Positions 49,899-63,941 are shown, counted from the first letter of the stretch. The stretch is 64,000 nucleotides of DNA from Leucobacter exalbidus (GCF_017834145.1 NZ_JAFIDA010000001.1:248001-312000), one strand, 5' to 3'. Notes: generated from the letters alone by a model not told the origin. Numbers and translations are program-made.

Positions 49899-50675
49899 TC
49901 AGGCGACGTCCCCCGCCTCACGAATCACCGTGGCATGGGTGCGCATGTTCGGCCCGTCGAGCTGGACAATCTCCGCATTCGAGACAATCCGATTCAAAAT
50001 GGACTCCGCGATCACCGCATCGTGCAACGATTTATACCAGTCCTCGGGATCGAACTGCGAGGTCACAACAGTAGATCCTCGCCCCTCACGCGACGCCAGA
50101 ATGTTCAACAGCTCCGCGGCGGTCTCGCTGCTAATCGGTGTCGTAAGGAAATCATCAAGCACCAGCACATCACACGTGTGTAGTCCGTCTAAGAACTTTA
50201 ACCGGGCAGCATCGCTGCGATCGTAGACCGCGAGCTGGTTCGCGAGGTCATCCAGCCGATAATATTTCGCGCTGTAATCCCTGCGGCAAGCCGCGTTCAC
50301 GAGCGCCTGCGCAAGATAAGACTTCCCGACACTCGAGGCCCCCAAAATGACAAGGTTCGTAGTGTTATCCACCCACTTACAGGCCGCGAGCCTGGCCACG
50401 ACTTCTCGGTTCAATGTTCGGCCCTCGAGGTAGTGGATATCTTCCACGCAGGCCGCCATGTTGGGGGTGCCGGACGCTTTCAAAAGTTTCAAGAAACGCC
50501 GCTCATCCCGCGCAGCGATCTCTCGGCCAAGGGCATGCCGGATTTTCTGCGAGAACGTCCACTCATCAAACTGGGGGTCGTTGGCGATATCAACAACCGC
50601 TTCTCCAAACGCAGTCATACGGAGCTTGGTGAATAGGGGCATGTCGTCAGCGGTGAGGTGCTGCTCAAACATCAT
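49899..50675 (-). CDS. istB: IS21 helper ATPase IstB (second element)
   Basis: A 258-aa AAA+ ATPase with Walker A GASSVGKSYLAQ and Walker B VLVLDDFLT. The start is one of two adjacent ATGs (50675, 50672) behind GGAAGGGAG; the longer frame to 50843 would overlap istA heavily. It overlaps the istA end by 11 bp. Confidence 0.92.
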   Translation of the reverse strand: MMFEQHLTADDMPLFTKLRMTAFGEAVVDIANDPQFDEWTFSQKIRHALGREIAARDERRFLKLLKASGTPNMAACVEDIHYLEGRTLNREVVARLAACKWVDNTTNLVILGASSVGKSYLAQALVNAACRRDYSAKYYRLDDLANQLAVYDRSDAARLKFLDGLHTCDVLVLDDFLTTPISSETAAELLNILASREGRGSTVVTSQFDPEDWYKSLHDAVIAESILNRIVSNAEIVQLDGPNMRTHATVIREAGDVA

Positions 50676-52311
50676 CTCTCCCTTCCTGGTGCCGGCCAGT
50701 GAGCGCATCGAGACTGAACGCAGCAGCCCCCGCGAGATACGCCCGACTCGTGTCACGAACGCCAGGCGACCCCGCCCCAGCAGAAGATGGAACCCCCGGC
50801 CTTCCCGTTGACTCGGTCTGCGGGCGCGCATGGTGTTCAGCACGTATGGCGGTGAGGCGATGTTTCACTGCCGTGTAGCTGATCTGCCGATGGGGGTCTT
50901 CATCGGTGAGCTGCCTGCAGGCATGTTCTAGCAGGGATCGGTTACTTCGTTTCCCGAGCTCGAGAATGTTCATGCAAGAACGGAACCCTTGCGCTTCGAT
51001 CTTCTTCCCGTCGAGGAGTCGTTCGAGCGCGGCCACAGTACCTGGCCCGACCTTGGCTGCCTGCCGCAGGAAATAGGCGCGCGTCCAAAGCCCTGCGGTC
51101 TCTTCCATATAGGCAGGAGCGTGGTCGGGGACGGTGACATATCCATTCTTGCGTTGCCCCCGGTGATGCGTCGCGATAATCTCACCGTCACTGAGGACAT
51201 CGATCGTGTCGCCGATGATGCGTGCCGAGACTTGACGACCAGCAAACTCGTAGGGGACGGAGTACTTAATGGTGTCGATCTGGATGTGCCAGTCACGATG
51301 TACCTTTGCATTTCGCCACGTGACAGGCTCCCACCGTCTCTCGGGCAGCGAGATGAGTTCATCTCGCTCGGACTCGTTGAACCACTCAACACGGGAACGG
51401 TGTTCTCCGCGAAACGGGGTCCGCTGATTGATGCTTTCGACTCGCTCAGCAACAGCAGCGTTCAAGTCATCAAGTGACGCGAACACTTGATCAGCGAGGT
51501 AATGAATGACCCAGTTCGTGATGATCTTCACGCCGGCTTCGACATGGCCTTTATCCCGGGGACGGTATGAACGAGTGGGAACGGCGGCTGTCTGGTGGTA
51601 CTCCAGGAACTCTGCGTAGGCAGGATTCACATCGCGGGCACGCTCGGCCCGGCTGATCTGGTTCGAAGCGGTTGATGCGTTATCTGGCACCACCACCAGG
51701 GTGACCCCACCAAAATATTCGAAGGCCCGCCGATGGGCGTCAAGCCAAGCTGGCTGCTTCTCGTCGAGACAGCCGTAGGCGAACACGAGACCGGAATACG
51801 GCAGCGTCGCGACGAACACGGACACCTTGGTGGTGGTTCTCGTAATGGGGTCAGTGATGAACATCGGGGTGCCGGCCCAGTCCACTTGCATGGTGTGGCC
51901 AGGCACATGAACGATCGGTGAGGTGAGGTCGTTCGTTCTCACATGCTCCGCCACGATTTGGCAGAATCTTTCGTAGCCGTAAAACCTGGCCCCTGGCATG
52001 GGGTCGTGCTTCAGATATTTTGCCCAGAGCACTTTCAGTGGTGGTTTCTTGCGGCCCAGTCTCGCTGCAATGATCTTCTCAATATCGACGGGAACGAACT
52101 CGCCTGGCACGCTCTTACGGCCGTCGTTGAATAACCGGTCAAGGTCTTCTGCGGTGAGAGCGTTGATTTGTGTGGAGGTCGTCAGCTGTTCGGTATGGAG
52201 CACGCGACGTGCTTTCGAAATGGTGGTCTGCGAGCAAGCCGCGATCGAGGCGATCTGGCGATACGACTGGTCCTGTAACAAGAGCAGCATTATTTGCCGG
52301 TAATTCGTCAT
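50665..52311 (-). CDS. istA: IS21 transposase IstA (second element)
   Basis: A 548-aa transposase: N-terminal HTH (IASIAACSQTTISKARRVL), DDE core from MQVDWAGTPMFI, VPDNAST, and DKGHVEAGVKIITNW for the last acidic residue. It appears intact. Confidence 0.92.
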   Translation of the reverse strand: MTNYRQIMLLLLQDQSYRQIASIAACSQTTISKARRVLHTEQLTTSTQINALTAEDLDRLFNDGRKSVPGEFVPVDIEKIIAARLGRKKPPLKVLWAKYLKHDPMPGARFYGYERFCQIVAEHVRTNDLTSPIVHVPGHTMQVDWAGTPMFITDPITRTTTKVSVFVATLPYSGLVFAYGCLDEKQPAWLDAHRRAFEYFGGVTLVVVPDNASTASNQISRAERARDVNPAYAEFLEYHQTAAVPTRSYRPRDKGHVEAGVKIITNWVIHYLADQVFASLDDLNAAVAERVESINQRTPFRGEHRSRVEWFNESERDELISLPERRWEPVTWRNAKVHRDWHIQIDTIKYSVPYEFAGRQVSARIIGDTIDVLSDGEIIATHHRGQRKNGYVTVPDHAPAYMEETAGLWTRAYFLRQAAKVGPGTVAALERLLDGKKIEAQGFRSCMNILELGKRSNRSLLEHACRQLTDEDPHRQISYTAVKHRLTAIRAEHHARPQTESTGRPGVPSSAGAGSPGVRDTSRAYLAGAAAFSLDALTGRHQEGRDDV

Positions 52312-52424: not shown

Positions 52425-52821
52425 AGCGCTCTCCAACGCACCGACTAAACACGAGCAAGAGCTGCTGCCCAGCGCGGTCGTGGTGAAGGCATTCAACGGC
52501 ATTCTCGCCCACCACATTCCAAACCTTGCGGGCTCGACCCCGCGCACCGCGCTCTTCATCGCGGGCGATAACGCGGCCGCAAAGCAGGCTGTAGCTTCTC
52601 TCGTATCTGCGCTGGGTTTTGACACAGTGGATGCTGGCACGCTTGCCGAGGCCTGGCGCTTCGAACCAGAATCAGGGGCGTACACCCCGATCTATGTCGC
52701 AGATATGGCCGTGTTTGCGGCGGACTATCTTGCTGATCCGGGCACCCCGGTCGTAGCCGACAGGCTGCGCGAGCTGCTGGCGGACTCGCACCGCGCAGAC
52801 GTGGCCGCCCGCCAGTTCTAG
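52425..52821 (+). pseudogene. 5'-truncated NADP/F420-type reductase gene
   Basis: The frame open from the IS21 end reads ALSNAPTKHEQELLPSAVVVKAFNGILAHHIPNLAG, then IAGDNAAAKQAVASLVSALGF and a C-terminal helix. This is the C-terminal half of the NADP oxidoreductase/F420-dependent NADP reductase family (the KAFN motif is typical). The Rossmann N-terminal half is gone, cut exactly at 52424. It ends tail to tail with fic, overlapping 4 bp. Confidence 0.75.
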
Positions 52822-53705
52822 CTGCCAGATACCTCTGGCGCGCAGGTGGTCAAGAACTCCATCAGCTCAGTGGCGTCATCGGTTTGGAAGAGCCGATCGA
52901 GCGCAACGTTGAATTCTTCAGACCTGGCGTATGGAATGTTGATGGCCTCGAAACCCGCCTGCAGTAGGGCGCCGGTCATCATGATGCGGGCGGTGCGCTT
53001 GTTGCCGTCGAAGTAGAACTGCGACCTAGTTGCCGAGCAAAAGTAGGCCAGGGCGGTGGCTCGAGGATCGTCAAGCGTGGCAAGGGATGCGAGCAGGTTC
53101 TCATAATCGGCGCGCAGCAGCTCACCGTGATCACCTGCGCGATCCCCTTTGACGGTGCCGCCGCCCGCGAGGCGCACAGCCCCGCCGCCCTGGGTGACCC
53201 CTTCGCCGCGAAAATGCCCAGACTCGATGGCCTCGTGGCGCGCGACGACACCGTGCACCGCGTCTGAAAGTTCCTTCCTGAGAGTGAACGTGCCGGAGCG
53301 AACCTCACGCACCATGAGGTCCATGGCCGCACTCAGCGCCAGAATCTGTTCGGCTTCCTCTTGTCGCTTGCCGCCCACGGTGACGCCTTCGAGTAACGTG
53401 CGCACCTGCGGCAGGGTGAACGTGTTGCCCTCGAGCGCGGCGGCGTTCCAGATCAGTGAGGGTAACGCTTTCTCGAGGCGAAAAAGTGCTCGCGGAGTAG
53501 GCGACTCGGGGATCAACGAAAAATCGACCAGTTGGGGCTGCCAACTGATGCGGCCCGTGGTGACGAGCGACGGATCGGCGCGAAGCCGTGAAGCGCGTTC
53601 ACCGGGGCGGGATGCGCCGGGCCCGGTTGCGTGAGCGGCACGTCGGTGAGCGGCCTCAGCGGCGCTGCGCCCCCACTGTTTCTGCGGCGGAAGATCGGGG
53701 TTCAT
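52818..53705 (-). CDS. Fic family protein with Gln in place of the catalytic His
   Basis: A 295-aa Fic protein. The N-terminal DUF4172-like region has NAAALEGNTF (residues 87-96), the inhibitory-helix style. The Fic motif reads QFYFDGNKRTAR (229-240) where active enzymes have HPFxDGNGR: Q229 replaces the catalytic His. The anion-binding D/GNKR part is kept. AMPylation is therefore unlikely; other transfer activity or a binding role is possible. It starts 3 bp behind the HTH/AbiEi-like gene and shares its promoter and twin operators. Confidence 0.85.
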   Translation of the reverse strand: MNPDLPPQKQWGRSAAEAAHRRAAHATGPGASRPGERASRLRADPSLVTTGRISWQPQLVDFSLIPESPTPRALFRLEKALPSLIWNAAALEGNTFTLPQVRTLLEGVTVGGKRQEEAEQILALSAAMDLMVREVRSGTFTLRKELSDAVHGVVARHEAIESGHFRGEGVTQGGGAVRLAGGGTVKGDRAGDHGELLRADYENLLASLATLDDPRATALAYFCSATRSQFYFDGNKRTARIMMTGALLQAGFEAINIPYARSEEFNVALDRLFQTDDATELMEFLTTCAPEVSGS

Positions 53706-53708
53706 TCC

Positions 53709-54461
53709 TCACCACCCTTCTGTAACGTTCAACGCGAGGTTGGTATAGCCGAGCCCGTGCAAATCGAGGGCCGCTTGGATCGGTGAGACGACGGTGAGAT
53801 GTTCTTTTTCATCGGTGAGGGAATCGACGAAATACTCAGGCGGGGCGGGCGCGACCAAGATACCCCCGGGCTGGTAATCGGGAGCTTCGCGAAACGTTGC
53901 GCTGAGCGCGTCACAGGCGGCCTCGGCGTGCTCGCTCCACAACACGACGGGGCCTACGCTGCCCGAGGTGAACAGATAATAATCGGCGGCGGCAATACCT
54001 GACAGCGCAAACGCACCTTGCGAGGTAACGCCAGCGCTGTTGACCGCTGAAGTGAGCCGGTCGTGTGAGAACCCACTGCGCGGTGCGAAGAACCGAGCCT
54101 GAGGGTGGTGCTGGGGCGCCGCGTACTTTCCCGCGAGCGCGAGCACTTCATCGGGTGCGGTGAGCTGATGGCGCTTGAGGCGGGCAACCCACTGCGCAAC
54201 GTCATCGGATTCTGCGACTGAGGTGGCGAGCATGGAGTCGTACATCACGCGTGCGGCGACGGCCGCGGCAGGATCGCCAGGGGCGACGAGGGTGACCGCG
54301 ATGTCGTACCCAGCTGCCAGCGCGAGCTCTCTTAGTGTGGCAATTGTGGGCACCGAAGTTCCCTCACGAACACGTTGAATAGTCATGCGAGATAACCCGG
54401 TGAGGCGCGCGGTAGACGTCGGTGTGCGCCCGACCTGTTCAATCATCGTGCTGATATCCAT
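53709..54461 (-). CDS. HTH regulator with AbiEi-like C-terminal region
   Basis: A 250-aa protein. The N-terminal Xre-type HTH spans about residues 12-50 (TARLTGLSRMTIQRVREGTSVPTIATLRELALAAG). The C-terminal half ends with VVSPIQAALDLHGLGY, a signature seen in AbiEi-type antitoxins. It likely represses its own operon and antagonises the Fic protein, as in toxin-antitoxin pairs. The ATG at 54461 is chosen over 54569 because the operators cover the region upstream. Fic follows after 3 bp. Confidence 0.8.
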   Translation of the reverse strand: MDISTMIEQVGRTPTSTARLTGLSRMTIQRVREGTSVPTIATLRELALAAGYDIAVTLVAPGDPAAAVAARVMYDSMLATSVAESDDVAQWVARLKRHQLTAPDEVLALAGKYAAPQHHPQARFFAPRSGFSHDRLTSAVNSAGVTSQGAFALSGIAAADYYLFTSGSVGPVVLWSEHAEAACDALSATFREAPDYQPGGILVAPAPPEYFVDSLTDEKEHLTVVSPIQAALDLHGLGYTNLALNVTEGW

Positions 54462-54469
54462 GACCCAAT

Positions 54470-54507
54470 TGTAACATTCATGTTTCAGGTGCAACATTGA
54501 TGTTGCA
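54470..54507. promoter_or_regulatory. Twin 18-bp operators before the HTH-Fic operon
   Basis: TGCAACATTGATGTTGCA (54490-54507) is a perfect palindrome (8-bp arms, TG centre); 20 bp away, TGTAACATTCATGTTTCA (54470-54487) is the same with two differences. They lie 9-46 bp before the HTH start, placed for cooperative autorepression. Confidence 0.75.
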
Positions 54508-54618
54508 ACTAGTTCTTCTGGTTCGTCCCCAGCTTGGCGATTAACGTGAAAGGGCGGTCTTCTCCACACCGGCGTGAAAGGCCTAGAGAAGTGCCGTGGA
54601 GCGAATTACGGTGCGAGT

Positions 54619-55611
54619 ATGCACAACCGTTCGAGCCCGGCTCACGCGAAGGAAGAACCACCGACGCTGCGCTCTGAAGACATCATCGCCAGCGAGCGGT
54701 GGCGTGCCCGCGTCGGCAGCGGCCCCGCGGTGGAGCCCGCTTTGGAGCGGGTGCCAGAGCGCTCACTGAGAGACCGGATCGCCCGCGCCGTGAAAGCTCC
54801 GGTGCTTGCGGGCATCGCGGTGTTCGTGGTCGCCGTTATCGTCACGATTGGCATCGTCGCCGCGAGCTCACTGGGCGGGGATGTCGCACCAGACGCTGGG
54901 GCCGAGGCGATGGCGGGCGTGGCTGATGCAGACGGCCTCGGTGAAAGCGCAGACGCCGGCACAGGCTCAGGCGGCCTGACGGGCGGCGGGGGAGAAAATG
55001 GTGCGACTGGTTCTGGAGCCGGCACGGGCGCTGGAACCGGTGCCGAAGCTCGGCCGCTAGCGGGGGACCAATCCGCAGCGGGCAACAGTAGCGATGCTGC
55101 TAGTGGACCTGGTGCGGCCACAGCCGCGGGAGCGCTGATCTTCGTGCACGTGGTGGGAGAGGTCGCGAGGCCCGGCGTGATTGAACTCCTCGCTGGTGCG
55201 CGCGCACAAGATGCCATTGAAGCCGCTGGCGGCGCGACCGGGGCCGCCGTGCTCTCGGGCCTGAACCTTGCGCGGCCCCTCGTTGATGGCGAACAACTGG
55301 TGGTGCCCGACAAGGCCGCCGTGGCTGCTGCGCTTGAAGCCGCCGCCGAGACGGGACAGCCGCACCCGCCGGGTGACGCCGCTCCCGCAGACGCACCGCC
55401 TAGCGAAGCGCCGGCGAGTGCCACCATCAACCTGAACTCAGCCGACGCAACCCAGCTCGAGACACTGCCGAGGGTCGGGCCAGCACTCGCCGAACGCATC
55501 ATCGATTGGCGCACCCAAAACGGCGGCTTCACAAGCGTTGACCAGCTGCTCGAGGTCTCTGGAATCGGCGCGAAGACGCTCGCCGGGTTTCGTGATCGAG
55601 TGACAGTATGA
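54619..55611 (+). CDS. comEA: ComEA-like DNA-binding competence protein
   Basis: A 330-aa protein with one N-terminal membrane span (AGIAVFVVAVIVTIGIVAA), a long Gly/Ala-rich linker, a SLBB domain (FVHVVGEVARPGVIELLAGA) and two C-terminal helix-hairpin-helix motifs (NLNSADATQLETLPRVG, LLEVSGIGAKTLAGFRDRV). The family binds incoming DNA outside the membrane. The ATG at 54619 is preferred to 54574 since GGAG lies upstream and the extra residues look random. It overlaps comEC by 4 bp. Confidence 0.9.
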   Translation: MHNRSSPAHAKEEPPTLRSEDIIASERWRARVGSGPAVEPALERVPERSLRDRIARAVKAPVLAGIAVFVVAVIVTIGIVAASSLGGDVAPDAGAEAMAGVADADGLGESADAGTGSGGLTGGGGENGATGSGAGTGAGTGAEARPLAGDQSAAGNSSDAASGPGAATAAGALIFVHVVGEVARPGVIELLAGARAQDAIEAAGGATGAAVLSGLNLARPLVDGEQLVVPDKAAVAAALEAAAETGQPHPPGDAAPADAPPSEAPASATINLNSADATQLETLPRVGPALAERIIDWRTQNGGFTSVDQLLEVSGIGAKTLAGFRDRVTV

Positions 55612-56477
55612 GCGATGCAACGACCATAGAGGGTCAGCGCACCGTGAGCTCGCGCACGGCCGAACCGGTGCCGCGTGCACCACCAGGAACTTGGCGGGTG
55701 CTTGGCCCGGCCCTGGTGCTCTGGGTGGTGACCGCGATCTCGGTCGCCGTACCAGGAAGCTGGTGGGTACTCGTGTGTCTGGCGAGTGTCGTCGGTGGGG
55801 TAGCCGCAGTCGCAGCTATCCGCGGTCGAAAGTGGTTGAGCCACGCGATCTTCGCCTACGCGGCTGTAGGCGCCGCCCTGGTGATGGTCACGGGAATGCG
55901 TATTGGCGTTGCTGAAGCGCAACGCGAGGCTCCGCACATTGAGGCTGCAGTGAGCTCGGGCGAATCGGTGGCGCTCAGGGTCGCGCTGAGTGACTACCCG
56001 GCACTGGATGCCGAGGCTACTGAGAACGCGATTTCTGGCTGGAGCCCGGCCACGTTACTGGAGCAGCGCCACGGCACCAAGCTCGTGCTGTGGTTTGCCC
56101 GCACCGAAACGGATCTCGGAATAGGTGGCGACGCCGAGGCACAGGATACGGCACCCCGGTTCTGGGCGCCGGGCACCGAACTGCTGATCGAGGGGCACCC
56201 GGTGCCCCTCGAAGCCACCTCAGGAGCACCATTTGGCATCAGCGTCAAACGGGTGAGCGAGATCACCCCGGCGTCACCTGGCATGATCGTGGCGGCGAAC
56301 CTGCGTGCACAATTGCGTGACACGGCAGCGCAAGTCGCCTGGGCATCACTCGTGCCAGGCTTCGCCGTGGGCGACACCGCTTTGGTCAGCGATCTGCTCG
56401 ACGAACGTATGCGGTCCAGTTCACTTTCGCATCTTGTTGCTGTTAGCGGGGACACTGTTAGATCAGGAGGTGGGTAG
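55608..56477 (+). pseudogene. comEC: comEC, truncated at the membrane core
   Basis: The first 281 residues of a ComEC DNA-channel protein: N-terminal spans (ALVLWVVTAISVAVPGSWWVLVCLASVVGG), a DUF4131-like beta domain, then the start of the competence domain, SSSLSHLVAVSG. Normal ComEC continues ANCALV and several hundred more residues with spans. Here the frame changes after VAVSG into GDTVRSGGG and stops. The break is at about 56448-56450. A defence-type operon lies right behind, so the missing part was probably displaced by an insertion. Confidence 0.88.
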
Positions 56478-56587: not shown

Positions 56588-57340
56588 CTATTCAGTTGAA
56601 CCAACGATCGCATCCACCTCAGCGAGAACTGCTGCAACGTCAGATTGGCGAAGTTCATCGACAAAGAATATTCGGCTGCCAATCTTGTTCAGTGAGGTCC
56701 CAAGGATCAGTCCTCGTTCACGGTCTGCGATCCAAAATCGATCGTGGAAATCGTTGGACTCAACTACGTTGACCTCTAGATCTCGACCATGCGCATGTAG
56801 ATGCTCGAGAACAGCCGTCCGCACTGTTTCATCATTCTGAGAAGGACTCACAACAGTTGTGATGCGCAAGCCATCTGTCAAAGCGGGCGAAATCATTCTC
56901 GCTACCGAGGCCGCATAATCTTGGCTATCTCGCTTCCGGGAGCTTGTGTACAGATACGGATCTGTGATGATCAGCTCCCGGATCGGGGCCAGTGCCTGAA
57001 GACGGCCTGCCATTCGTTGCTCCGCCGTCTTCGGCGGTTCCTTAACGGAGATGTCTTCTTGGAGCCAGACCATATTCAAGAATGATCCAGGTCCTCGGGC
57101 AACTAGTTGTTCTTGGATCTGTTCGATTGAATAGTCGGCTCGTCGGAACAGCATCCGATACCCAAGCTCATCCGCGTGTGACACAAGTTTGAGAGCATCT
57201 GTGTGAGTTAGCGGCGGATCGAACTGGAACGAATTCCAGGCATCAAGATGCCGAAATTCCCCGTCATCGTCAAAGCTCACGGGCTCGTTCGCCGACGTGG
57301 ACCTTGTGCCGTCGCTGCCATCAAGAAAGGAATCACTCAT
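56588..57340 (-). CDS. PLD-like (single HKD-type) protein
   Basis: A 250-aa protein. The N-terminal 90 residues are unrecognised. The second half resembles a phospholipase D-like domain: IRELIITDPYLY (about 119-130) then the active-site-like HDRFWIAD...GLILGTSLN (199-218), where His199 and GTSLN match the HxK(x)4D...GTSN pattern with Arg instead of Lys. One copy only, so a dimer would form the site. PLD-fold proteins act as nucleases in defence systems. Last gene of the operon; overlaps the GIY-YIG gene by 8 bp. Confidence 0.7.
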   Translation of the reverse strand: MSDSFLDGSDGTRSTSANEPVSFDDDGEFRHLDAWNSFQFDPPLTHTDALKLVSHADELGYRMLFRRADYSIEQIQEQLVARGPGSFLNMVWLQEDISVKEPPKTAEQRMAGRLQALAPIRELIITDPYLYTSSRKRDSQDYAASVARMISPALTDGLRITTVVSPSQNDETVRTAVLEHLHAHGRDLEVNVVESNDFHDRFWIADRERGLILGTSLNKIGSRIFFVDELRQSDVAAVLAEVDAIVGSTE

Positions 57341-58529
57341 GCTTGGACCCCACTAAGCGTTGTTGCACCTTGTCGTACACGTAGTCGGTGATCTCACCGG
57401 ACATGATCATCGCCACAGCCTCGTTGATCGCGTCGCGGGGCACAACGAACCATTCAGACGGATCGTAGTTCTGGCCCTTCTTGTCCACCTGGGTCAGGGC
57501 GAGGCGCACGTCTGCAAAGACGCGGTGCAGCAGGTTCTCCAGCGCCGAGGCCTTGAGGTTGTACACCCGGTAGTCAGCCACGATCTTGACCGGTGCCATC
57601 AGATACGTCGGTGAAGTCGACGCGCCTTTGACCCGTTGCTCAACGCTGGTGGTCGAGAACCCGATCTTGTGCAGATCTTTGATGTTCGCAACTTGGGGGT
57701 CTGTGCTCATCGACTGCAGCACGTAGATATGTCCACTCTCGATGTCGGGGTCAAGTACTTCGCTCACATCGTGCCCTGTACGCGCCAGAACCTGCCCCTG
57801 GGCCTCGTACAGACGCGTCATGAGGCTCTGTCTATACATCGCCGATTCTGTGCCATTCTCGAAGACCACGCGCAAACGCTGCTTTTGCTTCGGCTTTCCA
57901 CCAACAACCAGATCCACATCGTCCCCGACCTCGGCGACGAAGCACATCACACCGCTAAGTACGAAGAACACACCTTCACGGATGAGATCCATGCCGGTGA
58001 ACGGCATCAGTTGGTAGGTCCCGTCAGCGAGCTCGGCATGTTTTGCCTTGAATAGCGGCTCAAAGAGGTCGAAGTCTTGGGCTTTCACCCTCTGAGCCAC
58101 CGAGTCTGGCGATTCAGGGCGCTTGAACACCGGCAGGTCTGACACATCAAGAATGCCAGTTTCGTCACCCAGCAGGTCATCGAGGTCGTCGTCCTCGAGC
58201 AGATCTTCCAGGGACGACGGTGCTTTAGCGACCTCTAGCATCCCGAACTCGTCGAGTGGTTTCAGCTCTTCTAGTTTTGCATCGTCTGCCAGGATCCCAT
58301 CGAGCCGGGCACCAAGCTTGCGCTCAGCAATGTCACGGGTCGTTGCACTCGGCAACCGGTCGTGCGTCCGACGGAACTCTACGATCTCCAGGAAGGCACG
58401 CTGTAGCCGATCAGTGGCTGTTGCTTTCTTTGGCTTTTCTGGGACGTCCAGCAACCCATCGAGGTCGTTGTCGATAAGGTCCTGTAGCGATGTTGGTGCA
58501 GCCTCGAACTCGTCTTCATGCTCTGTCAT
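57333..58529 (-). CDS. GIY-YIG (T5orf172/MUG113-type) nuclease
   Basis: A 398-aa protein. The C-terminal domain has GHIYV (266-270), HKIG (287-290, in the YIG position), Arg299 and Glu331 in ALENLLHRVF, fitting the T5orf172 branch of GIY-YIG nucleases. The N-terminal 140 residues are acidic and contain a repeated segment: TSLQDLIDNDLDGLLDVP (13-30) and SSLEDLLEDDDLDDLLGD (105-122). These could be docking motifs for the helicase or methyltransferase. It overlaps the helicase gene by 4 bp. Probably the DNA-cutting subunit. Confidence 0.8.
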   Translation of the reverse strand: MTEHEDEFEAAPTSLQDLIDNDLDGLLDVPEKPKKATATDRLQRAFLEIVEFRRTHDRLPSATTRDIAERKLGARLDGILADDAKLEELKPLDEFGMLEVAKAPSSLEDLLEDDDLDDLLGDETGILDVSDLPVFKRPESPDSVAQRVKAQDFDLFEPLFKAKHAELADGTYQLMPFTGMDLIREGVFFVLSGVMCFVAEVGDDVDLVVGGKPKQKQRLRVVFENGTESAMYRQSLMTRLYEAQGQVLARTGHDVSEVLDPDIESGHIYVLQSMSTDPQVANIKDLHKIGFSTTSVEQRVKGASTSPTYLMAPVKIVADYRVYNLKASALENLLHRVFADVRLALTQVDKKGQNYDPSEWFVVPRDAINEAVAMIMSGEITDYVYDKVQQRLVGSKHE

Positions 58530-60496
58530 TCGCCAGCCATCATCTCTGTCGCGCGCTTGTCTGCTTCGAGCTTCTGCTTGGCCCGCTGGAGCCAGATCAG
58601 CGCTTCTGCATGACGCTTTTCTGTCGGATCTTCGGCACGTGAGTCGGGCTTACGGCCGTTGACCTTGATCCAGTTCTTGATCCGCGGTACCAGGGCGAGT
58701 GCTTCTTCTTCGGTGAACTCGATCCGCGTCGCCGAGATAGCGTCGGTAATAATCCGCAGCACGTTCGTTGTGACCGACTTGGACATGACTTCGAAGGCGC
58801 GTTGGAACGGATTGACGGAGTCGATCAGGTTGATATTGATCTCGTCGATGTTGACGAACTTCTCGCTCATCTTGATGAACCGCTGGTCGCCGACCGTGCG
58901 CACCTCACCGTTCTTGATCACCGAGTCCACGACAACCTGCTGGCGGATCTCTTCGATTTCGGTCTCGGTCAGGTCCGGGTACTTCTCGCGAATGATCTTC
59001 GGGATGAGTACCTTGTTCGTGGTCTCAGGATCGATGCTGCCGGCAGCGGCTCGAGCGAAGGTGTCATCCTGCAGAATCGTGGCCTTCAAATCGTTCAGGT
59101 CGGTGTCCACGATCTGCTTCACGCGATCAGTCGAGGGTTCCTTGAAACCCTTGATGCGCAGCGTGCCCGGTTCCGGTGCATCGCCATCGCGCTTGGCCTT
59201 GAACGTGAAGTTCTGCGCCAGCACCTGCTCCATCAGAAGCGACGCAGTGATCGCCTTGAGCATGTTGTTGACCGAGACCTTGACCTCGGTCTGTGACGCA
59301 TCTGGTTCGGCGATAAGGTTCGTGAACTGGGTATGCGTCTTGCCGGGGCTGTCGCGGGTCACGCGACCAATGATCTGGATAACCTCAGTCAGCGAGGAGC
59401 GGTAGCCCACCGTCAGAGCATGTTCGGCGAACGGCCAGTCAAAGCCCTCCTTCGCCATACCCAGCGCCAGGATGATGTCCACCGCGTCGGCTTGCTTCGA
59501 TGCGACAGTCGAGAGGTAATGCAGCGTGTCAGCACGCGCCTTCTGGTTCGTGTCGTCAACGAGATCAGCCACGCGCAGGATCGCGCCTGTATCGGCGCGA
59601 CGGATCCGGATGATCCCGGTGTCCTCTTCGGTATCCACGACCTCACCGATCGCGTCGATGATGAAGCCGACCTCTTCGATCTTGTCCTTTGTCGACTCAT
59701 TAGCGTTCACGCTAGGGATGTGCAGGATCGTCTTCTTGTCCAGGTCCAGCACCTCGCTGATCGCGTCGGTGTAACGCCCCTGGTAGAAGTGGTGGCCGAT
59801 ACCCAGAGATTTCAGGTGCTCATAGCCGTTCAGCTGGTCGTAGTAGTTGAACGTCACCGGTGTGAACTGTGCCTCATCGTCGGCCGACAGCACAGGCACC
59901 GAGTCGCCGCGAAAGTACGAGCCAGTCATGGCCACGATGTGCACATCCGAGCCAGCCATCACATCACGTAGCAATGCACCGAGGCGGTTTGACTCGGTAT
60001 CTGCCGAGACATGGTGGAACTCATCGATTGCCAGCACTGTGCCGTTGAACGCTTCGGGGGCGAGCTTCTCAAAGGCATAGCGCAACGTCGCATGCGTACA
60101 CACCAGAGTCGCGTCCGGTCCGTTGAGGAAATCCACGAAAGCTTTGACCTTGCCAGATGATGACCCAGGCGTGCACAGATTGTGCTCATCCTTGATTTCC
60201 CAGTCGGCGAAGAAGCCGTTCTTGGTTAGTGGCGTGGTTGCAAACGATGCGCCGATTGAACGCTCCGGCACCGCAACGATGACCTTCTTGCGGCCCTGGT
60301 TGTAGAGCTTGTCGAGCGCCACGAACATCAGTGCACGAGACTTACCCGAGGCTGGGGGAGCCTTCACCAGCAGGTGCTGCGCATCGCGCTTTTCGAAGAC
60401 GCGCTGCTGCATCTCGCGCATGCCCAGTGCGTCAGTATGCACTGACGCCCCGGTCTGGGAATACGTCACATCGACGATGTTCTCGGTCTTGCTCAT
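58526..60496 (-). CDS. DExH-type superfamily 2 helicase
   Basis: A 656-aa helicase/translocase. Motif I APPASGKS (46-53), motif II DEFHH (158-162), motif III MTGSYFRGD, motif V GMAKEGFDWP (346-355) and motif VI QIIGRVTR (374-381). The C-terminal 250 residues are helical and unrecognised. Its 4-bp overlaps with both neighbours indicate one complex. In restriction systems such motors translocate DNA between recognition and cleavage. Confidence 0.88.
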   Translation of the reverse strand: MSKTENIVDVTYSQTGASVHTDALGMREMQQRVFEKRDAQHLLVKAPPASGKSRALMFVALDKLYNQGRKKVIVAVPERSIGASFATTPLTKNGFFADWEIKDEHNLCTPGSSSGKVKAFVDFLNGPDATLVCTHATLRYAFEKLAPEAFNGTVLAIDEFHHVSADTESNRLGALLRDVMAGSDVHIVAMTGSYFRGDSVPVLSADDEAQFTPVTFNYYDQLNGYEHLKSLGIGHHFYQGRYTDAISEVLDLDKKTILHIPSVNANESTKDKIEEVGFIIDAIGEVVDTEEDTGIIRIRRADTGAILRVADLVDDTNQKARADTLHYLSTVASKQADAVDIILALGMAKEGFDWPFAEHALTVGYRSSLTEVIQIIGRVTRDSPGKTHTQFTNLIAEPDASQTEVKVSVNNMLKAITASLLMEQVLAQNFTFKAKRDGDAPEPGTLRIKGFKEPSTDRVKQIVDTDLNDLKATILQDDTFARAAAGSIDPETTNKVLIPKIIREKYPDLTETEIEEIRQQVVVDSVIKNGEVRTVGDQRFIKMSEKFVNIDEININLIDSVNPFQRAFEVMSKSVTTNVLRIITDAISATRIEFTEEEALALVPRIKNWIKVNGRKPDSRAEDPTEKRHAEALIWLQRAKQKLEADKRATEMMAGE

Positions 60497-63192
60497 TTTT
60501 TCTTACCCTTCAAAGCTTCAGCTGCAGTCATGGCCTCATACATACCAAACAGGTCCGACAATCGCTGTTCGTCCGTCTCGTAGCCGCTCTTCGAATAGAT
60601 GGAATCAACTAGCTCATCGATGGCAGTGTGGGCCGCACGAAGGTCCGCCGGCATCTTGTCTGGGTCGTAAAGCTCAGCCAACGTCTTTTCGCAGTGGTAC
60701 TCACGGACGTCCAGCACTCGCAGGGCAGCGACTGTGAGCTTCTCCTTGACCGTGCCGGATAGCGGAGGCACCGGGAAGTTGTTGTAGACGATCGTGTTGG
60801 AGTAACGAATTCGATCCTCGAGTGCGCCCGCGACGGCGCGAGTCCACGCCATATGAACGCGCGACGTTAGGAGGGCGAAAACCCATGGCTCGGCATCATA
60901 CACGGCGCTTGCTGAGTCTCCGATGACGGTATCTGGACCCAGGTAGCCAATCGGGATGTAGTCCCGCCTTTCTGATGAGTGGCGCGGAATCAGAATCGAA
61001 TTGGTTTCGCGGTATCGCACTTCAGCGAAGCGCCATGGAACGTCTGCTAGTTTCTTGGTGGCGAGGCGAGTGCTTTTTGATCGATGCTCTAATACTCCGC
61101 GCACTCTTCGGTCGATCTCTGGAATTTCGGCTGCGACGGCATGATTCTCCAACGTCAGCCATAGGACGTACTTGTCAGTGCCGTCGATAAACTCCTCGGT
61201 ACCCGTGAACGCCTTCGTATAGTCAGTGGATCTTGGATCCCTTTCGATCAGGTCTCGCCATGCAGGTTCTTTGATCAGGAGATTTCCTCCGTCGTTTGGC
61301 ATGCTGCCATTGGAAATAGGGGGAAGGCCTGACAGCGGTTTACGGCGATCCGTGACAACAAAGTTGTCACCATCGGCAAGGTAACCGTTGATGTTTGTAG
61401 CCTTGATCTGCAGATCGCCAGCGTAGATATACTTCTGGTCCACCCGAGGGACACGCAAATTTATGACTGAAACTGTCACGCCAGCGTTTCGCTTCGCGTT
61501 GTTCGTCCATTTGAATGATGTATACGCGTACCCGATCTCCAAGTCCAGACTGACCAAGAACGGAAATAGGAGCGCAACTTGTTGGCCTTGCGAGAGAGAA
61601 TTTGTTGTCACGAAAGCAAGTTCGGACTTGCTACCGCGAATGTACTGAGCACCCTTAATGAACCACAGGGCAATATAGTCCAGGTTTTTGGATAGGCCTG
61701 TGTTCTCAATTACATAAGTGTAATCAGCCTTTTGCTCTGCTGTTTGAAGCTTTGATCCGTAGTACGGCGGGTTTCCAATTAGGTATATTTCAGACTGCCC
61801 GTCGTTCGGGCACACTTGGGTCCAGTCAATTCTTGCTGCGTTTCCAGCTTTGACCTGACCCGTCTCTCTCAGCGGGATCAGCGGAATCGAGAGCTTGAAC
61901 TTCTCTTTGAACTCGGTGTTCATCTGGTGCTTAGCAATCCAGATCGACAGGATCGCCACCTCGACCGCGAAGTCATCGATCTCGATGCCGTAGAAGTTCT
62001 CGATATTGATCCGTGACTCGGCGTACAGCATCTGGTGCTTGCTATCGAGCTCGAAGAGGCGCTCAAGGATGCCGTGCTCAAGTCGACGAAGCTCCTTGTA
62101 GGCGATGATGAGGAAGTTTCCTGAGCCACAGGCCGGGTCGAACACCTTGATCTCGCTGATCCGGTCCAGCAGTGCGCCGAGCTTCTTGACGCTGTCGAAT
62201 CCAGCGTCAAACTGATCGCGCAGCTCGTCCATGAACAGTGGCTCAATGGTTTTGAGAATGTTTGGCACCGAGGTGTAGTGCTGGCCAAGGTCTGCGCGCT
62301 TACCGGGTGTGACGATGGCCTGGAACATCGAGCCGAAAATGTCGGGGTTGATCTCGCGCCAAACCAGGTTGCCCAGCTCGATCAGCAACTGCCGTGCCGA
62401 CTTGGTGAACTCTGGCACGAACTCGTCATCGGTCACGGTGAAGAGACGGCCGTTGACGTAGGGGAAGGCAGCCAGATGGTGCGGCTTGTCTTCAGCAAGC
62501 TCAGTATCAAGCGCGAGGAACACGTCCCGCAAGAAGTCCGCGGCATCGGACCCATCGACTTGAGTGTGCGACCCCACAGCGTTAGTGAACTGGCTCCCGT
62601 CAAAGATCTCTGTGTCCTCAGCGAAGAAGCAGAACAGCAAGCGCGTGAAGAACACATTCAGCGAGTGACGTCCGTTTGGCTGCTCAAGCAATCCGGGATT
62701 CGCTGCCATCAACTCATCAAAGAGTTTGCCCATGCGCTCGGCAGCCTTGACATCAGCAATCTTCTCGGCGACGTATTGCGCCTTCTCCATGCCAGCCCAG
62801 GGCAGGAAGAAAGTGTAGTGCTTGTCGATGTCGCGGATGTCAAACCCGATGGTTTCGCCGACTTGCGTGTCTATCGCGACGACCTCGTCGTAATCCGTAA
62901 CGATCACGAACCGCGGGCCGTACCGCACCACCGAAGCCGAGATGCGTAGCTCTTCGAGCTCGGCCAGTGGGTCGCCGTTGGTCTCACGGAAGTAGACAAC
63001 GTTCTTCTGCGCCACTTCTCGTGATGGGTCAGCTGCGACGTTGAGCGAGGTGCCGTTCTTCAATCGGGTGACGTTGCCCTTGGGCTTTCCGTAAGCCAAC
63101 AACAAATCGAAGATGAATTCGCGGTCGTACGATTCTCGACCTGCAAGTGGGGCGACGCGTTCTTCGACGGCCTTGAGATTTAGTTTTGCCAT
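60493..63192 (-). CDS. Class I adenine-type DNA methyltransferase (MmeI-like architecture)
   Basis: An 899-aa N6-adenine-type methyltransferase. Motif I FDPACGSGNF (351-360) and motif IV NPPY (474-477) are clear; LGQHYTS (302-308) resembles the helical segment before motif X. Residues about 1-300 form a regulatory or helical part and 580-890 a likely target-recognition region (ending ...YNNFPVPPL). No PD-ExK nuclease is evident at the N-terminus, unlike MmeI. It would mark host DNA and define specificity. The start is ATG at 63192 behind GAGAGAAC; a longer frame to 63276 lacks a site. First gene of the operon. Confidence 0.88.
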   Translation of the reverse strand: MAKLNLKAVEERVAPLAGRESYDREFIFDLLLAYGKPKGNVTRLKNGTSLNVAADPSREVAQKNVVYFRETNGDPLAELEELRISASVVRYGPRFVIVTDYDEVVAIDTQVGETIGFDIRDIDKHYTFFLPWAGMEKAQYVAEKIADVKAAERMGKLFDELMAANPGLLEQPNGRHSLNVFFTRLLFCFFAEDTEIFDGSQFTNAVGSHTQVDGSDAADFLRDVFLALDTELAEDKPHHLAAFPYVNGRLFTVTDDEFVPEFTKSARQLLIELGNLVWREINPDIFGSMFQAIVTPGKRADLGQHYTSVPNILKTIEPLFMDELRDQFDAGFDSVKKLGALLDRISEIKVFDPACGSGNFLIIAYKELRRLEHGILERLFELDSKHQMLYAESRINIENFYGIEIDDFAVEVAILSIWIAKHQMNTEFKEKFKLSIPLIPLRETGQVKAGNAARIDWTQVCPNDGQSEIYLIGNPPYYGSKLQTAEQKADYTYVIENTGLSKNLDYIALWFIKGAQYIRGSKSELAFVTTNSLSQGQQVALLFPFLVSLDLEIGYAYTSFKWTNNAKRNAGVTVSVINLRVPRVDQKYIYAGDLQIKATNINGYLADGDNFVVTDRRKPLSGLPPISNGSMPNDGGNLLIKEPAWRDLIERDPRSTDYTKAFTGTEEFIDGTDKYVLWLTLENHAVAAEIPEIDRRVRGVLEHRSKSTRLATKKLADVPWRFAEVRYRETNSILIPRHSSERRDYIPIGYLGPDTVIGDSASAVYDAEPWVFALLTSRVHMAWTRAVAGALEDRIRYSNTIVYNNFPVPPLSGTVKEKLTVAALRVLDVREYHCEKTLAELYDPDKMPADLRAAHTAIDELVDSIYSKSGYETDEQRLSDLFGMYEAMTAAEALKGKKK

Positions 63193-63395
63193 CGTTCTCT
63201 CGTTGATTCTTCTTGGGCGCGCCGACGCCGGCTGCGCGTCCTCGCAACCGGAATGATTCATGATCTTTCGGGTCATCTCAGATCATATCGGCGCGCTGCT
63301 GTCAGCTCCGGTATGATCTTGCGGTTCGCGTGAATCAGTAGCTACGTAGAACATAACTGTCAATCGCTGGATCGTCGTGAACGAATGGAGCACTC
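63193..63395. promoter_or_regulatory. Divergent promoter with TATGATCT repeats
   Basis: Inverted arms AGATCATATCGG (63280-63291) and CCGGTATGATCT (63308-63319) differ at one base. Each contains a -10-like TATGAT, one reading each way. A third ATGATCT is at 63260-63266. The arrangement suits divergent promoters controlled by one regulator. Confidence 0.55.
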
Positions 63396-63941
63396 ATGGT
63401 GATGTTCTACCCCCAGGGACACGAGGCCACCTTATGGAAGCCAGATCCTGCCGAGGCAGGGCATCGTTTTTTCCTCGGTAACGACGCTGGCTGGTCGGTC
63501 GGAAATCCGCCGCTCATCGCGCTCTGCATGAACCCGTCGTATGCCAGCGAGCAAGTCTCGGACAAGACAATTGACCGGTTGATCAAAGCGAGCATCGAAC
63601 ACCAATACAGCGGCTGGGTCATGCTCAACCTGTATCCCGAACGGGCCACAGACCCGGCGAATTTATCTGCCTACGATGCCTCGCTTTCGCAGGACAATTG
63701 TGACGCGATCGAGGAAGTGATCGCGAAGTATCAAGTCACCGAGATTCTTGGGGCCTGGGGTGGGAACCCTAAACCGACTATTCGCCAAGCAAAGCGCGAC
63801 GTACTTGCGCGGCTCAAGTCTCTCGGTGTGCAGGTTTTCAGCTTGGATCCGCTTACTGCTGACAAGAACCCGCGGCACCCTACGCCGAGGACTGGCCCAC
63901 TACCGATGCTTGGCCCAAAGGTGTACCTGCCGCTGCTGTGA
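63396..63941 (+). CDS. DUF1643-family protein
   Basis: A 181-aa protein of the DUF1643 family: LIALCMNPSYAS (with the N-P-S motif), VMLNLYPERATDPANL, and EILGAWGGN. The function is unknown; members often lie near restriction or other defence genes. GGAG at 63385-63388 precedes the ATG. Divergent from the methyltransferase, probably sharing its control region. Confidence 0.85.
   Translation: MVMFYPQGHEATLWKPDPAEAGHRFFLGNDAGWSVGNPPLIALCMNPSYASEQVSDKTIDRLIKASIEHQYSGWVMLNLYPERATDPANLSAYDASLSQDNCDAIEEVIAKYQVTEILGAWGGNPKPTIRQAKRDVLARLKSLGVQVFSLDPLTADKNPRHPTPRTGPLPMLGPKVYLPLL

Follow-up and report, generated by a model that had tools for sequence, protein, structure and literature searches.

An intact, mobile DnmA-YeeB-YeeC-type operon with one rare accessory gene in Leucobacter exalbidus, as identified from its sequence

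Based on sequence comparison we identified three consecutive genes of Leucobacter exalbidus as a DnmA-YeeB-YeeC-type operon, an intact and mobile copy with one rare accessory gene behind it. The genes are located in a stretch of 64,000 nucleotides (GCF_017834145.1, NZ_JAFIDA010000001.1:248001-312000) that was analysed as a whole and is referred to here as the window; positions are counted from its first letter. The trio probably carries out methylation-blocked, ATP-driven restriction of unmodified DNA, with the PLD-like product of the fourth gene as an optional accessory. The four genes are as follows.

60493-63192, minus strand: DnmA-type (MmeI-family) adenine methyltransferase/specificity protein (Pfam, PADLOC, 5hr4 alignment)
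58526-60496, minus strand: YeeB-type SF2 helicase/translocase, full length (Pfam DEAD, conservation, genome and plasmid relatives)
57333-58529, minus strand: YeeC-type T5orf172 GIY-YIG protein (Pfam T5orf172/MUG113, conservation, AlphaFold)
56588-57340, minus strand: accessory PLD-like gene outside the conserved core (8-bp overlap with the GIY-YIG gene, HDRF motif)

Results

Relation to described systems

All four open reading frames are intact in the window, and their coordinates bear out the four minus-strand genes with overlaps of 4, 4 and 8 bp given in a preliminary description: the helicase gene lies directly downstream of the methyltransferase gene and the T5orf172/GIY-YIG gene directly after the helicase gene, each with a 4-bp overlap. 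That description had left the set without a named match, but the first three genes correspond to the operon dnmA-yeeB-yeeC. In B. subtilis, DnmA is an MmeI homologue without a nuclease motif (38% identical to MmeI) that produces m6A at GACGAG, and yeeB (helicase) and yeeC (T5orf172/GIY-YIG) are found immediately 3' of dnmA in a conserved gene order (PMC7261158, PMC9973331). The window holds the same three families in the same order and orientation. We base this match on the families, the order of the genes and the published description; in the B. subtilis control genome, the Pfam profiles MmeI_TRD and T5orf172 both gave matches. The window differs from the B. subtilis cluster in its 39-kb element in comEC, its fourth, PLD-like gene, its full-length helicase and nuclease and its predicted NAGRAC-type site in place of GACGAG.

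It was suggested earlier that DnmA, YeeB and YeeC form a type I-like restriction system, and biochemical cleavage by any member of the family is not reported in the same two papers (PMC7261158, PMC9973331). The proposal that the activities of MmeI-type enzymes are here split over several proteins is supported by the separate helicase and nuclease genes beside a nuclease-less methyltransferase. It is not new, however, and represents an existing hypothesis, because the type I-like idea for dnmA-yeeB-yeeC had already been published (PMC7261158, PMC9973331).

Profile scores and absent partners agree with the earlier view that the set is not DISARM, BREX or a standard type I system, and the exclusion of Druantia was upheld as well. 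DISARM also combines a methyltransferase, a helicase and a PLD-type protein; the DrmMI and DrmC matches found here are weak, and DISARM was rejected with no DrmA or DrmB among the PADLOC matches listed for the four operon proteins and three neighbours. For BREX, the PglX-type match was far below the NCBIfam cut-off (38 of the 500 bits needed), and the PADLOC matches for the operon and the neighbouring genes included neither BrxC and PglZ nor any other BREX partner. Type I and type ISP enzymes resemble the action proposed for the trio in coupling a sequence-specific methyltransferase to a translocase and a nuclease, whereas no HsdS- or HsdR-type protein was matched here and the nuclease is a GIY-YIG protein that is encoded separately.

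Methyltransferase and predicted recognition site

The methyltransferase matched the Pfam profiles MmeI_Mtase (322 bits), MmeI_TRD (234 bits), MmeI_N (86 bits), MmeI_hel (80 bits) and MmeI_C (70 bits), and its best PADLOC match was type IIG PDLC03598 with 916 bits, DrmMI reaching 108 bits. The motifs DPACGSGNF and NPPY and a full TRD are present. With a start at 63192 the protein has 899 aa; an alternative in-frame ATG at 63276 is possible, and the start at 63192 was preferred because the lengths of homologues fit it.

Alignment with MmeI (PDB 5hr4) by phmmer gave 571 bits over 800 residues, in which the methyltransferase, helicase-spacer, TRD and C-terminal domains align. It begins at residue 117 of the window protein and residue 104 of MmeI, past the residues D70/E80/K82 that constitute the catalytic triad of the MmeI nuclease (PMC4833311). 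No conserved D...ExK triad was found by column conservation in 68 methyltransferase homologues; the permissive pattern D/E-x-[DE]xK matched 58 of the 68 N-termini, too many to be informative, and column conservation was preferred to it. Assignment to the type IIL (MmeI) enzymes was rejected, as these need an N-terminal PD-(D/E)xK nuclease in the same polypeptide. The window protein, in contrast to MmeI, is without D70/E80-x-K82, and the restriction functions presumably reside in separate proteins. Pfam and the 5hr4 alignment thus confirmed a nuclease-less MmeI-type methyltransferase that is accompanied by an SF2 helicase and a T5orf172 GIY-YIG protein.

The methyltransferase is predicted to recognise 5'-NAG(R/G)-m6A-C, a non-palindromic 6-bp site in which the A at position 5 would be methylated on one strand. 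For this prediction we used the residue code of the MmeI-DNA structure (PMC4833311) and one pairwise alignment, which was partly read by eye. Compared to MmeI, the specificity residues are changed at 645 (K to M), 751 (E to R), 773 (N to D) and 774 (A to S) and are kept at 806 (E), 808 (R) and 810 (R). In terms of the code, M at 645, read by eye from the alignment, indicates A:T at position 2; R at 751 with D at 773 indicates G:C at position 3; S at 774 with R at 810 indicates G or R at position 4; and E at 806 with R at 808 indicates C:G at position 6. The prediction spans positions 2 to 6, and position 1 was left as N.

Helicase and GIY-YIG protein

The helicase matched the Pfam profile DEAD (33 bits) and, more weakly, Helicase_C. 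All its motifs are kept, namely Walker A PPASGKS with K52, DEFHH, MTGSYFRGD, GMAKEGFDW and QIIGRVTRD (consensus QIIGRxTRD), and 247 positions are at least 95% identical in an alignment of 84 sequences. The GIY-YIG protein matched T5orf172 with 46.6 bits (T5orf172 and MUG113 each about 47 bits), and its residues Y269, K288-I-G290, R299 and E331 are kept and were conserved or invariant in the alignments. The protein consists of a helical N-terminal region, a beta-rich middle domain and a C-terminal T5orf172 GIY-YIG nuclease domain, and its AlphaFold model (mean pLDDT 86) displays the same three-part layout. A fold search of the PDB with this model gave nothing significant, EF-P/eIF5A-like small barrels being matched weakly and in part, and phmmer detected no relative of the helicase or the YeeC-type protein in the PDB.

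Distribution of the trio

Scanning 84,980 species genomes, we matched at least 592 stretches, at least 587 of which hold a gene related to that of the helicase. From these at least 587 loci we kept the best 80, which together with three relatives from the genus make up the 83 genome loci referred to below. Among the best 80 the helicase is 59-85% identical over nearly its full length, and they are from Actinobacteria, Bacteroidota, Campylobacterota, Proteobacteria, Firmicutes, Planctomycetes, Lentisphaerae, an archaeon and others. Helicase genes were also present in 263 plasmid records and in three of 395 sampled genomes of the class.

The neighbourhood survey that the preliminary description had called for showed that the three-gene core almost always stays together; the fourth gene does not co-occur with it. 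The GIY-YIG gene adjoins the helicase gene in every one of the 83 genome loci, and the methyltransferase gene was found in 74. In the other nine the helicase gene begins at most about 2.4 kb from the start of the locus, which leaves too little room for a gene of roughly 2.7 kb, so that a complete methyltransferase gene would not have been visible there. Of the loci that have both, roughly two thirds show methyltransferase and helicase genes that overlap or almost adjoin; in the others the two are separated by 0.5-5 kb of further genes, some of which, as read by eye, encode RhuM-like, Fic-like and AlbA/Schlafen-like proteins. In L033, L039, L042, L051, L058, L064, L071, L075 and L080 the genes inserted in the operon resemble those for RhuM, Bro-N, Fic and comparable proteins. 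Type I restriction loci often hold cargo genes inside, similar to those inside the trio operons. At one locus (L073) the methyltransferase gene is placed after the nuclease gene.

On viral contigs, the GIY-YIG gene was found in 39 of 41 loci, with helicase identities down to 45%. The viral contigs L140, L142, L143 and L145-L172, some of which are 40-120 kb long, carry a more distant form of the trio that branches off from the rest, with helicase identities of 45-53%.

PLD-like gene and the variable position behind the nuclease gene

The PLD-like protein had no Pfam match and gave weak PADLOC matches to PDC-S05 and DrmC. In its C-terminal half it has a single HKD-type motif (H199-D-R201-F-x3-D...GTSLN), which is largely conserved across five sequences, the HDRF and GTS parts being kept in four distant relatives. 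The pattern looked for here was that of PLD superfamily nucleases, HxK/R-x4-D followed by GxS/N. Its AlphaFold model (pLDDT 43) is too poor to use, and a fold search gave nothing.

The claim of one four-gene system did not hold. A single-sequence search detected no PLD-like relative in the 83 genome loci. With a profile of five relatives, a PLD-like homologue was downstream of the GIY-YIG gene in none of these 83 loci, and none of the 41 viral loci was matched. The idea that the four genes form one new four-part system was rejected on this lack of co-occurrence. The profile matched only in a Sulfurimonas locus (L074), namely three RhuM/ORF6N-type proteins encoded upstream of the helicase, one of them a fragment at the contig end. 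In this locus (L074:1-2348) three consecutive genes just upstream of the helicase have near-identical C-terminal HDRF domains, the N-terminal domains being RhuM in one and ORF6N in another, and the third gene is cut by the contig end; this suggests a modular swap of N-terminal domains.

We judged the PLD-like gene to be accessory and not part of the core. It is somewhat probable that it is an unrelated single-gene defence or cargo gene that simply landed behind the operon. Its distant relatives (23-32% identity) all stand alone, on plasmids and one prophage: tblastn located them on a Salinivibrio plasmid and beside repABC genes on Rhizobium and Pannonibacter plasmids, and the scan of viral contigs placed one in a prophage region that was judged by eye to be P2-like. 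The GC content of the gene is 52%, against 55-58% for the trio. In addition, its C-terminal HDRFx3D...G(T/A)S domain is shared with the RhuM/ORF6N proteins (PADLOC PDC-S05), which are common cargo at trio loci; at their N-terminus these proteins have a DNA-binding domain, RhuM or ORF6N, that is absent from the PLD-like protein. However, the 8-bp overlap with the GIY-YIG gene suggests translational coupling, and nuclease-like genes recur in the same slot, which is suggestive of a functional connection.

In 9 of 26 actinobacterial loci (L011, L012, L018, L020, L021, L023, L025, L026 and L027) this slot directly after the GIY-YIG gene is occupied by a NucS-like gene, which overlaps it or follows within 15 bp. 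The NucS-like protein has roughly 362 aa, matches NucS_C with 23 bits (just under the cut-off) and PADLOC PDC-S11 with 477 bits, and is unrelated to the PLD-like protein; other loci carry other genes in the slot. Among the 395 class genomes a NucS-like gene was detected in 21, none of them one of the three with the helicase and none with the gene beside trio genes. As these 21 genomes carry it apart from the trio, there is no fixed association between the two. It is conceivable, although rather doubtful, that the slot holds interchangeable auxiliary nucleases, such that the core would recruit a NucS-like protein in many Actinobacteria or a PLD-like protein here, and so alter or strengthen the fate of the cut DNA. 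Such a modular auxiliary-nuclease design is not described for the DnmA-YeeB-YeeC family in PMC7261158 and PMC9973331.

Mobile element and genomic surroundings

The operon is located on a 39.3-kb serine-recombinase element that is inserted in comEC, with the following landmarks.

window 55608-56456, plus strand: 5' half of comEC, ending just after HLVAVSG
window 56451-56477: left end of the element inside comEC, 27-bp imperfect terminal inverted repeat (paired by eye)
contig position 343702-343728: partner inverted repeat (paired by eye)
contig position 343739-345229: 3' half of comEC, 39 kb from the 5' half

The 27-bp imperfect inverted repeats at the two ends are GACACTGTTAGATCAGGAGGTGGGTAG and GACACAGTGGACTAAGGAGGTGGGTAG. 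A large serine recombinase of 508 aa is encoded just inside the right end, and the element also encodes a TrwC-type relaxase, a TraG/TraD-like coupling protein, a DUF5906/Pox_D5 primase-type protein and a second resolvase. The operon is thus cargo of an integrative and probably mobilisable element of about 39.3 kb. As the element splits comEC, the strain is probably without a functional DNA-uptake channel.

Several other genes were observed nearby. At 52818-54569 of the window, beside comEA, two minus-strand genes form a possible toxin-antitoxin pair, one encoding an HTH protein and the other a product that weakly matches Fic and PADLOC PDC-S04. Genes for an IS21-type transposase and its IstB helper are found near the comE region (window 49899-52311). 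A divergent DUF1643 gene (window 63396-63941) adjoins the methyltransferase gene, and L039 has three DUF1643 genes near the trio.

Discussion

For restriction by the trio we propose the following course. Its observed basis is the domains, the gene order and their conservation, whereas the assembly of a complex, the translocation, the cutting and the two-site requirement are modelled on what is established for enzymes of type I, type III and type ISP. The DnmA-type protein would read its non-palindromic 6-bp site, mark self DNA and recognise non-self DNA. At an unmodified site it would recruit or load the YeeB-type motor, which would translocate with ATP, and the YeeC-type GIY-YIG nuclease would cut. 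Cutting would require a pair of unmodified sites facing each other, a condition also seen with type III and type ISP enzymes; such a rule would be the simplest guard against self-cutting after replication, because one strand per site is marked. The PLD-like protein would be optional, in the variable slot behind the nuclease gene, and the core reaction would proceed independently of it.

The cluster of B. subtilis has been called a relic by the authors who described it (PMC7261158, PMC9973331), and the same may be considered for the window: an orphan epigenetic m6A methyltransferase that still works, beside a motor and a nuclease that no longer restrict. This fits with the deletions in B. subtilis, which gave no phage, plasmid or transformation phenotype, and with phages showing no avoidance of the DnmA motif (PMC7261158, PMC9973331). 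Deletions of dnmA and yeeB in Vibrio crassostreae increased the sensitivity to some phages (PMC7261158, PMC9973331). The B. subtilis YeeB and YeeC were reported to be without C-terminal stretches, whereas the window helicase and GIY-YIG protein match over their full length. The intact reading frames of the window and the helicase and GIY-YIG motifs, which fit the family consensus, are consistent with an active system, and motor and nuclease are both strongly conserved across phyla, which speaks for selection acting on them. We therefore regard a relic as unlikely.

It is highly improbable that all four proteins are needed as one obligate system, with the GIY-YIG nuclease and the PLD-like nuclease acting jointly: the genes of these two do overlap within one operon and the NucS-like protein, another putative nuclease, fills the position in part of the actinobacterial loci, but the PLD-like gene was downstream of the trio in none of the surveyed genome and viral loci, the matches in L074 are RhuM/ORF6N proteins encoded on the other side of the helicase, and the sole full match among the 395 class genomes is the window itself.

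Restriction by the three core proteins thus remains the preferred reading, and the survey indicates that the fourth gene should not count as a defining part of the system. The trio is widespread across phyla, yet we found no published biochemical mechanism for it, and the copy that has been studied best is reportedly inactive. The complete copy in L. exalbidus, with its intact motifs, its predicted site and its division into core and accessory genes, would allow the family to be tested as a true restriction system.
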